From Candidatus Woesearchaeota archaeon (GTDB lineage Archaea; Nanoarchaeota; Nanoarchaeia; Woesearchaeales; UBA11576): a stretch of DNA of 5,047 bases. A model generated the notes under the pieces. That model was given only the letters and a program-made list of their open reading frames with translations, searched no databases and had not been told where the DNA came from. Shown piece by piece: positions 1,739 through 4,819 of this stretch. Made by a program: the position numbers and the translations under genes. Position 1 is the stretch's first letter; every line of letters starts with the position of its first letter. The stretch lies in the NCBI GenBank assembly GCA_013331125.1, contig DUGW01000213.1, positions 1,073 to 6,119 on the forward strand. The letters are read 5' to 3'.

Positions 1739-1963
1739 GCAGAGGCCAGCCCGTCGTCGCCTTTTGCGCAGCACCAATTGACTAATTATGCGAATCTGGA
1801 GGGGGAAGTCCACTCGCAAACAGTCACGGGTTTGCGAGTTCCTGGAAATCGAAGATTTCCATGACTTACAGGGAGGTGCCAGATCACCAGCAAAGACTGC
1901 CAAGTGCGAGCCCGGCGACGACGAGAGGTCTGCGCAGCTGACCGAAGTAGGGCTGGCCTCTGC
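1739..1963 (+). ncRNA. Candidate structured RNA of about 225 nt, family not recognised
   Basis: No convincing protein-coding frame lies here, yet the segment is about 57% GC by hand count and rich in complementary blocks. Helix A pairs GCAGAGGCCAGCCC (1739-1752) with 1950-1963, 14 bp with no mismatch. Helix B pairs GTCGTCGCC (1753-1761) with 1914-1922, nested directly inside. TGCGCAG (1765-1771) can pair with CTGCGCA (1930-1936), which lies between the 3' strands of B and A, so it would be a pseudoknot. Inside are a 10-bp hairpin (1812-1821/1830-1839, 8-nt loop) and a 7-bp hairpin (1844-1850/1854-1860), flanked by AAGTC (1806-1810)/GACTT (1863-1867). The order P1-P2-long-range helix resembles RNase P RNA topology, but the conserved ACAGAA...GGCUUA element is missing. 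SRP RNA motifs are also absent. The plus strand is chosen because a TATA-like box lies about 32 nt upstream and a minus-strand transcript would follow the phoU terminator; the strand remains uncertain. Confidence 0.55.
1812..1860. repeat. Two adjacent strong hairpins within the RNA candidate
   Basis: ACTCGCAAAC at 1812-1821 is the exact reverse complement of 1830-1839, with loop AGTCACGG. GGAAATC at 1844-1850 is the exact reverse complement of 1854-1860, with loop GAA. The short AAGTC/GACTT helix outside them (1806-1810/1863-1867) would close a three-way junction. All pairs are Watson-Crick, so the hairpins themselves do not reveal the transcribed strand. Confidence 0.7.
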
Positions 1964-3196: not shown

Positions 3197-3466
3197 GTGC
3201 CTGAAGTTAAATTCAAAGGTCAGCTTGTCATGCGCAGGGCTTACAAGAATGAAGAGGGGTTCCTTTCTGGCGGCAGTTTCTTTGTTAGGCAGGTAAGGGA
3301 TGAGGATCTTGGCATATTCTTCAATGGTCCTTTCCTGAAAAGTTGCTGCGAAAAGAACAATATCCGCATGCTTAAACCCTCTGAATTTGAAGAGCTCGAA
3401 GCAGAGATCATCATCAGGATACCTGATAAGTTCATCAAGAAGAACAGTAATAATCATAAAGTATGA
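3197..3466 (+). CDS. Hypothetical protein, 89 residues, GTG start
   Basis: I do not recognise this protein. It is small, charged and soluble-looking, with an opening beta-like segment (VKFKGQLVMRRAY, 4-16), a Gly/Phe-rich turn (GFLSGGSFFVRQV, 21-33), a Cys pair at C50-C51, an acidic stretch (SEFEELEAE, 62-70) and a strand-like EIIIRIPDKF (70-79). The tail is Lys/Asn-rich. Gene status rests on the near-perfect Shine-Dalgarno AAGGAGGT (3181-3188), 9 nt from the GTG, with a TATA-like box at the right distance before it. There is no ATG alternative near the start. The stop lies inside the 3' end of the glycosylase gene on the other strand (13-bp overlap). It is monocistronic, and no function is proposed. 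Confidence 0.72.
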   Translation: MPEVKFKGQLVMRRAYKNEEGFLSGGSFFVRQVRDEDLGIFFNGPFLKSCCEKNNIRMLKPSEFEELEAEIIIRIPDKFIKKNSNNHKV

Positions 3467-4176
3467 GCACAATTCTTCTTCAGAACACAACCTTCACATT
3501 CAGGTTTTGTCCTGCAATACCTCTTCGCATGCTCGACTATCAATGCGTGGTATTCGTTGAACTTCTCCAGATTCTTCTCTGTGAAACCGCCGAGTGTCTC
3601 GACGAACATCTCCTGCAGTTCTTCATAATTGACATCTGCCTTGCACACACCCAGACGTGAGAATATCCTTTTTGTGTATGCATCTATGACAAACACCGGC
3701 ACTCCGAAACCGTATAGCAGTATGCTGTCTGCAGTCTCTGGACCAACCCCCCAGATATCCAACAGCTCTTCCCGTGAAGGCACTCTTCCATCCAGCTTCC
3801 CGAAGAACTCTGCGAATATCTTAAGTTTCTTCGCCTTCTGGTTGAAATAGCCTGCGGGTTTTATCGCCTGTCTGAGCAGCTCTTCATCCACGCCGAGGAT
3901 GCCCTTGACACTGAGCGCATCTATCTTCTTAAGGTTGAGCAGTGCCTTCTCGACTGAGACCCATCCTGTGTTCTGCGTCAGTATCGCTCCGCAGCATATC
4001 TCGAACCGCTCTCTCTCATCGTGCGGGAAAGAATAATCTCCTGGATGATAACCCTCGACCGCTCCTGTCTTTGTTGGATTGCCCCCTCCTTTGCCGTGCA
4101 GGCTGACCAAGGGCCACCATCCCTGCGGGCCGTACTCCTTCAACAGTATCTCGAATACCTTGACTATCTGTTCCAT
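3454..4176 (-). CDS. HhH-GPD DNA glycosylase, MagIII/endonuclease III-related (COG2231-like)
   Basis: This 240-residue base-excision repair glycosylase is predicted to flip out and remove damaged bases. The N-terminal GPQGWWPL (16-23), CCGAILTQNT (61-70), helix-hairpin-helix core LLDIWGVGPETADSILL (138-154) and catalytic Asp165 (VIDAYTKR) match the MagIII/COG2231 branch of the endonuclease III superfamily. In Nth the lysine that gives AP-lyase activity sits in GVGRKTA; here the same place reads GVGPETA (Glu147), so a monofunctional glycosylase is expected, possibly for alkylated purines. Four C-terminal cysteines (C221, C227, C230, C236) resemble the 4Fe-4S loop, but the first spacing is x5 rather than the x6 of Nth. 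No Shine-Dalgarno precedes the ATG; a TATA box about 26 nt upstream implies a leaderless mRNA. Its 3' end overlaps the convergent 89-residue gene. Family is confident; substrate is not. Confidence 0.9.
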   Translation of the reverse strand: MEQIVKVFEILLKEYGPQGWWPLVSLHGKGGGNPTKTGAVEGYHPGDYSFPHDERERFEICCGAILTQNTGWVSVEKALLNLKKIDALSVKGILGVDEELLRQAIKPAGYFNQKAKKLKIFAEFFGKLDGRVPSREELLDIWGVGPETADSILLYGFGVPVFVIDAYTKRIFSRLGVCKADVNYEELQEMFVETLGGFTEKNLEKFNEYHALIVEHAKRYCRTKPECEGCVLKKNCAHTL

Positions 4177-4209: not shown

Positions 4210-4764
4210 TTAGAACCCTACGCCATGATTCATCGAGTCCAGGTCATAGATGATGCCATCATCATCCATCCTTATCCCTGATGCTGGCCTTTCTTGGATC
4301 TCAACACCAGAAGCATACCTCTGGATCAGGCTTCTCAATGGCTGCGCATACTGGACAGGAACGCGCACAACCACCTGAGGTCTATGCATGATCGCACCTT
4401 CAACATAACAGCACAGGCAATTAGGGTCTATACCTGCCGCTTCGATCAGGTGCTGTGGCGGCAATGGGTCATAGACTATCGATGTCAACTGGTCCTCATC
4501 GCTTGTCTGCCTCATCATATGAGGGTATCTTGACCGCAATTCTGTCAATATGTCAAATGCGCGCAGAGATGTTGTCTCGAGCACGACTGTAGGCCTTGAG
4601 GTTATGCCTCCGAATGATATATAAGATAGGTCATCTGAACAAACACCGGCCGCCTCAAGCACATCTCCTGGAGGTGCAGCATCGTATACTATTTCGGTGA
4701 GTTTCTGCGTAGGCCGGGCATCTGGTCTTTGTCCTGGTTCTTGTTTGATTGCCAATTGGTTCAT
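4210..4764 (-). CDS. Unknown protein with two tandem copies of a roughly 60-residue unit
   Basis: This 184-residue protein is not one I recognise. It consists of two diverged copies of one unit, residues 22-80 and 93-150. Both begin LTxIVYD, followed by PP, EAAG(V/I), a Leu, a Gly-x-Ile, RP and VV, and end in an RY-capped helix. By eye about 24 of 59 positions agree. A third partial start, GIIYDLD, lies at 170-176 near the C-terminus. The pattern of each copy suggests strand-helix-strand-strand-helix. A CLCC cluster (116-119) occurs only in copy 2. The N-terminal 20 residues look disordered (Gln, Pro, Arg-rich), and there is no signal peptide or membrane segment. The start is placed at ATG 4762-4764 because AAGGAG (4774-4779) lies 9 nt upstream; a start 42 nt earlier would bury that site inside the gene. 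It precedes the glycosylase by 33 nt on the same strand. Confidence 0.75.
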   Translation of the reverse strand: MNQLAIKQEPGQRPDARPTQKLTEIVYDAAPPGDVLEAAGVCSDDLSYISFGGITSRPTVVLETTSLRAFDILTELRSRYPHMMRQTSDEDQLTSIVYDPLPPQHLIEAAGIDPNCLCCYVEGAIMHRPQVVVRVPVQYAQPLRSLIQRYASGVEIQERPASGIRMDDDGIIYDLDSMNHGVGF

Positions 4765-4802: not shown

Positions 4803-4819
4803 GCAATCCGCAGGATTGC
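4803..4819 (-). repeat. Stem-loop in the leader of the duplicated-domain gene
   Basis: GCAATCC (4803-4809) and GGATTGC (4813-4819) are exact reverse complements around a 3-nt loop, ending 38 nt upstream of the start codon. There is no following T-run on the minus strand, so it does not look like a terminator. Confidence 0.5.

Follow-up and report, generated by a model that had tools for sequence, protein, structure and literature searches.

The window (the whole 5,047-nucleotide stretch of DNA analyzed here) contains, by Pfam, genes for a DUF58 protein (1-873, +), a GTPase (919-1680, -), an AbrB/PhoU-type regulator (about 1997-2947, -) and an HhH-GPD (endonuclease III-like) protein (3454-4176, -). 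Two further proteins had no Pfam match: an 89-amino-acid small protein (3197-3466, +) and the product of a gene at 4210-4764 (-), in which there is a putative repeated segment, IVYDAAPPGDVLEAAGV / IVYDPLPPQHLIEAAGI. Among named proteins, those closest to the regulator and to the GTPase came from Nanoarchaeota/Woesearchaeota. In the closest genome that we found (G001, locus L001), the gene order DUF58-GTPase-regulator is the same as in the window, with identities of 76% and 75% for the first two proteins and 68% over the best segment of the regulator. The intergenic gap is 316 nt in the window versus about 110 nt in L001, where we found no element structure like that of window positions 1739-1963. 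Relative to L001, the element would be an extra piece at the window site; with a single relative compared, a deletion in L001 rather than an insertion in the window is possible.

The preliminary description of this DNA had read 1739-1963 as a structured RNA, either a very divergent or reduced catalytic RNA or a member of a family not described before, made up of two nested end helices, two internal hairpins and a crossing helix, in an order recalling RNase P RNA. Both nested helices, of 14 and 9 bp, are real and perfect (Table 1), and we confirmed from the window sequence the two internal hairpins (1813-1820/1831-1838 and 1843-1850/1854-1861), which are perfect as well. A further hairpin near the 3' end has a stem of GGTC (1927-1930) and GACC (1940-1943). 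The stretch 1690-2000 folded with a z score of -4.46 relative to its shuffles, 1 of 100 of which folded as well. Open reading frames across 1739-1963 reach only 60 to 65 amino acids, and the G+C content over 1762-1913 is 0.51. By its position, the 5' strand of P2 probably corresponds to columns 16-19 of the family alignment A2 (see below).

Table 1. Features of the element copy in the window, with partners and basis
Feature	Position	Strand	Remarks
Whole element copy, 225 nt	1739-1963	+	Flanked by the stop of the PhoU/AbrB gene and the promoter of the GTPase gene
P1 5' arm / terminal inverted repeat	1739-1752	+	14/14 Watson-Crick pairs with 1950-1963
P2 5' strand	1753-1761	+	Perfect 9-bp helix with 1914-1922
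Conserved junction TTTTGCGNAGC	1762-1772	+	Aligned by covariance model R1
H3 5' strand GCAC	1771-1774	+	Pairs with 1904-1907; helix 2 of A2
P4 5' strand ATCTGG	1794-1799	+	Pairs with CCAGAT 1879-1884; helix 3 of A2
Core 5' part AGGGGGAAGTCC	1800-1811	+	Family core motif
Two perfect hairpins, core loop	1812-1862	+	Missing from short-loop copies of A2
Core 3' part CTTACAGGGAGGTG	1865-1878	+	Family core motif; R1 alignment
P4 3' strand CCAGAT	1879-1884	+	Helix 3 of A2; R1 alignment
H3 3' strand GTGC, then GAGCC	1904-1907	+	Sequence; R1 alignment
P2 3' strand	1914-1922	+	Pairs with 1753-1761
3' hairpin GGTC-T-GC(GCA)GC-T-GACC	1927-1943	+	Between P2' and P1'; flanked by ACGAGAG and CGAAGTAGGGC motifs
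P1 3' arm / terminal inverted repeat	1950-1963	+	Pairs with 1739-1752

A dispersed family in related genomes

When 10 related genomes were searched at the DNA level, a copy in genome G004 gave two matches collinear with the window (71% identity over 91 columns, E = 1.4e-4; 72% over 57 columns, E = 0.96). The letters of its P1 differ from those in the window and are again complementary. The core motif, allowing up to 3 mismatches, had 3 to 55 matches in each of 5 of the 10 genomes, including 55 in one 1.6-Mb relative and 19 in another, compared with 0 or 1 for the reversed motif. From related genomes we extracted 72 copies, scattered over contigs in both orientations and lying mostly between genes. 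A match inside an apparent gene (L205) and one that reads as coding (L040) were set aside; a further locus, L041, is known from an alignment only. With their scatter in both orientations, the copies were also dropped as candidates for integron attC sites, and the motifs conserved in attC were not seen in them.

The elements are about 125 to 285 nt long and reach about 505 nt with nested inserts. Short copies have the layout GCAGYGCCACCGCC - TTTTGCGNAGCG - ~20 nt - P4 - GGGGGANGYCCCYTACGGGGA - P4' - ~20 nt - AGCGNAGCC - TGGCGTGGCRCTGC. Long copies have extra outer ends and, in most cases, a small hairpin that separates P2' from P1', which is the architecture of the window copy, and some copies are nested or, like the window copy, carry other hairpins or insertions at the same place in the core loop. 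The core GGGGGANGYCCCYTACGGGGA and the junctions GCGNAG / GAGCC are conserved across the family, and the commonest form of the junction at window positions 1762-1772 is GCGNAGCG. This one interior is found within several terminal repeats (GTATTTGTTTAGC, GGCTCTGTWGAAAA, GCAG...). Two kinds of insert were noted in passing. Directly after the core GGGGA, several copies (L229, L244 and L255) have a stem-loop of ~50 to 60 nt made of two hairpins, and the core loop of L039 contains, at about 1440-1510, a second, smaller dispersed hairpin repeat, parts of which match many other places in genomes G002, G003 and G004.

Of 118 genomes sampled from the order to which G001 belongs, 33 had family members by a covariance model (R1) built from 52 copies (E <= 1e-4). 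In 371 genomes of its phylum, R1 found the family in 44 (E <= 1e-5), two of which (G003 and G004) had supplied copies to the model. Genome G001 itself had no family member by either the core motif or R1. Nor did the family match any entry of Rfam 15 or turn up in searches of a literature library with few subscription papers and no preprints. We read it as a MITE-like, structure-conserved family of mobile elements in Woesearchaeota, with members in many DPANN archaea.

How the window copy relates to this family was assessed with the same model. With default filters, R1 missed the window. With the filters off, in a search of 701 bases, it gave an in-register alignment of window positions 1762-1913 with a score of 10.6 bits (E = 0.008), compared with 19.0 bits for the G004 copy under the same search. 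At the place of the two internal hairpins, the window has 61 nt in this alignment, against 9 in the model. These extra hairpins, together with an outer frame of its own, count against membership. The frame is shared by six window-like copies (the window included), in the order P1-P2-...-P2'-ACGAGAG-like-hairpin-CGAAGTAGG-P1'. In the segments of the six copies picked by eye, P1, P2 and the hairpin are paired throughout by Watson-Crick pairs, with no G-U, the exception being 1 of the 14 P1 pairs in L039. Four of the six (L046, L263, L328 and L333) have a different interior and no GGGGG core, which also counts against our reading and means that outer frames and interiors can occur in different combinations. 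Two of these different interiors begin TGATGA or TGATTA. With moderate confidence, and on modest alignment scores, we regard the window copy as a homologous member with a related outer frame.

The six-copy comparison also led us to reject the pseudoknot. The crossing helix of the preliminary description (TGCGCAG, 1765-1771/1930-1936) is present in the window only, the longest perfect match between the two segments in the other five window-like copies being 0 to 5 nt, and the 3' segment takes part in a separate hairpin.

Covariation, ends and target duplications

Alignment A2 comprises 52 of the 72 copies: 8 were removed first because of insertions or odd ends and then, by eye, 12 of the remaining 64 as near-duplicates or divergent variants. 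In its helices, 83.4% of cells were paired, compared with 66.0% in shuffled alignments and 35 to 49% in slid versions. Changes on both sides were seen in 21 of the 28 pairs (17.2 in shuffles), cells with a double change numbered 240 (72.4 in shuffles; 54 to 85 in slid controls), and the covariation score was 0.440 (0.166 in shuffles), with shuffles that ignore the relatedness of the copies. The number of further pair types (59) hardly exceeded that in shuffles (54.5) and was reached by 33 of 500 of them, which counts against our reading. In P4 (helix 3 of A2), all seven pairs had changed on both sides; the core G-C pairs are nearly invariant and hence uninformative. In the six window-like copies, P1, P2 and the 3' hairpin keep their pairing with differing letters, as the helices of the wider family do in the 52 aligned copies.

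Of the 964 cells that are paired in helices 1 to 3, 30 are G-U (our own count from the table). Among 32 long copies (taken by length from the 36), 23 have a C(GNA)G triloop in the region of the 3' hairpin, compared with 1.26 in shuffled sequences. Triloops of this type are very stable in DNA.

The evidence for mobility comes from the ends. Among the matches listed, we selected 20 pairs of GGCTCTGTWGAAAA-type ends by orientation and a spacing of 160 to 505 nt. Eleven of these elements were flanked by exact duplications of 8 to 9 bp and four more by duplications with one mismatch, whereas re-paired flanks gave 0.0 and 0.04, respectively. Nine of the 11 exact duplications were 9 bp long; that their length varies (8 and 9) counts against our reading. 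By R1, the family interior is present in 16 of the 20, 8 of them with exact and 4 with one-mismatch duplications; R1 did not find it in the other 4 (L299, L301, L305 and L313), which is a further point against. Another 57 copies have other ends. Symmetric direct repeats of 6 to 8 bp were seen in 10 of them (0.26 after re-pairing of flanks), and the remaining 47 had no repeat of at least 6 bp, again a point against. Set apart from these 57 were seven copies with both ends of the GTATTTGTTTAGC type, four of which had exact 8-bp repeats when read by eye, and eight with one such end.

Many genomic copies with target duplications, the outcome that the preliminary description had named as refuting its RNA reading and pointing to a small mobile element, are what we found for the family in related genomes, and for that reason we call the family MITE-like and not a free RNA. 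The family and the window copy alike are short and lack a transposase gene. Terminal inverted repeats are present as the perfect 14-bp P1 in the window and as defined ends in family copies; target-site duplications were found at the level of the family, and multiple dispersed copies were found in the relatives. The window copy itself had no recognizable target duplication, which suggests that it is probably old or that its true ends differ from P1.

Searches of six genomes with PF13610, PF01610 and PF03400 did not yield a transposase with matching ends. PF01610 and PF03400 were found in none of the six, and PF13610 was found in one, genome G011, in two proteins (L266, 916-1746; L267, 1127-2088). 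Both have an IS240-type DDE domain, and the second is split into two overlapping frames. Inverted-repeat searches around both transposases gave no matching ends. A single GGCTCTGTAGAACG lies ~0.9 kb from the second, with no partner found, and there were no inward-facing end pairs 0.8 to 2 kb apart among the matches listed. The covariance model and the defined ends offer a handle for further transposase searches and for mapping recent insertions. From the ends and duplications, we infer that a transposase supplied in trans would cut at the inverted repeats and that the element would be inserted through a staggered cut.

We also recorded where the copies sit, leaving out 5 odd-sized copies of the 72. 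A TATA-like box lies 15 to 29 nt from the left end in 17 of 36 long copies and at that distance on the right side in 5 of 36; further out, such boxes number ~2.2 per equal bin. Near short copies they are scarce (1 of 31 on the left and 0 of 31 on the right). In 9 of 13 flanks read by eye, the box is placed as expected for a leaderless gene directed away from the element (4 were unclear), and we therefore make no claim that the element has a promoter of its own. In the window, a TATA-like stretch at about 1703-1709, between the GTPase start and the element, likewise fits the neighboring gene. By crude gene calling, 28 short copies have an upstream gene no more than 400 nt away, and 20 of these lie downstream of it in the sense direction.

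Interpretation and known systems

We consider it likely that the window segment is a decayed copy of one of a set of short, nonautonomous, MITE-like transposable elements of Woesearchaeota. The unusual feature of these elements is a conserved, covarying interior inside several types of ends. One tentative explanation, which we would hold at somewhat below even chances, is that folding of the single strand, in extruded or replicating DNA, is what preserves the interior; the C(GNA)G triloops and the low number of G-U pairs would fit such folding. Rather unlikely, in our view, is that the interior is an independent structured module (single-stranded DNA or RNA) carried by, or jumping between, unrelated families of terminal repeats. 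This would make it a structure-selected mobile satellite and, with the same doubt attached, something other than the usual MITE or the usual RNA. Such short mobile elements, whose ends and helices are rewritten yet still paired and which can reach tens of copies in a DPANN genome of 1 to 2 Mb, lend themselves to testing what selects structure in mobile DNA.

The strong covariation, the invariant loop positions, the interior common to several end types and the placement of short copies, mostly downstream of a gene in the sense direction, would also suit a functional small or cis-acting RNA family that was amplified by or captured in transposons, with the interior working as RNA, for example, at message 3' ends. 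We nevertheless judge this improbable: no promoter of its own was shown despite the TATA-like boxes of the long copies, G-U pairs are few, there is no member in the close relative G001, and Rfam gave no match. The expectation of an undescribed RNA family thus held insofar as a structured, covarying family without an Rfam match does exist, and such families are a warning for RNA discovery, as they mimic new noncoding RNAs with excellent covariation.

Still less probable is that the copies are intergenic palindromes or transcription terminators that template switching keeps complementary without any transposition. Their palindromic nature, their mostly intergenic position, the few G-U intermediates and the window copy with no duplication would agree with that, but the exact 8- to 9-bp duplications at defined ends, the invariant loops common to many genomes and the lack of the element from the gap of L001 speak against it. 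The suggestion in the preliminary description that this is a divergent or reduced RNase P RNA can practically be dismissed: the window resembles archaeal RNase P RNA (RF00373) in the order of its nested end helices, and its GGGGAAGUCC string resembles the CR-I motif of RNase P, but neither RNaseP_arch nor any other Rfam model matched 1739-1963 at E <= 10, all six related genomes searched (G001 included) have a separate RNase P RNA above the Rfam cutoff, the family is multicopy in relatives with target duplications, and the 7-nt crossing helix at the place of P4 of RNase P is not conserved beyond the window. At locus L264 of genome G002, a family copy and the RNase P RNA gene adjoin each other (features at 2103-2431, -, and 1943-2078, +).

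As transposable elements, the copies can be set beside known prokaryotic MITEs, which have been described in Sulfolobus, Halobacterium, Haloquadratum and other archaea (PMC10969869). According to this review, MITEs resemble our family in being small and geneless, with inverted ends, short direct repeats (7 to 9 bp for one MITE in a figure legend), many intergenic copies and a predicted stable fold of the transcript. They are described there as typically AT rich, whereas the G+C content of the R1 matches among the 20 elements with GGCTCTGTWGAAAA-type ends was 0.50 to 0.61. The family further differs from MITEs in that its inner helices covary and its loops are conserved across genomes and end types. 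The IS6 ends given in PMC7986276 have a GG tip, cTGTt and caaa and are accompanied by 8-bp repeats. The GGCTCTGTWGAAAA ends of many long copies partly fit this pattern, and part of the family copies have 8-bp direct repeats; the ends of the window copy do not fit the IS6 end motif. Unlike IS6, the family has no transposase gene inside, and 9 of its 11 exact repeats are 9 bp long. The IS240-type DDE domain, found in one of six genomes only, was not accompanied by ends matching the family.

REP/REPIN elements and hairpins recognized by HUH enzymes are, like the family, folded DNA dispersed between genes. The family differs from both in its target duplications and long inverted ends. A perfect hairpin, GCAATCC-GCA-GGATTGC, lies in the window at 4803-4819, upstream of the gene at 4210-4764; its triloop is of the same C(GNA)G type as in the 3' hairpins of the element family.
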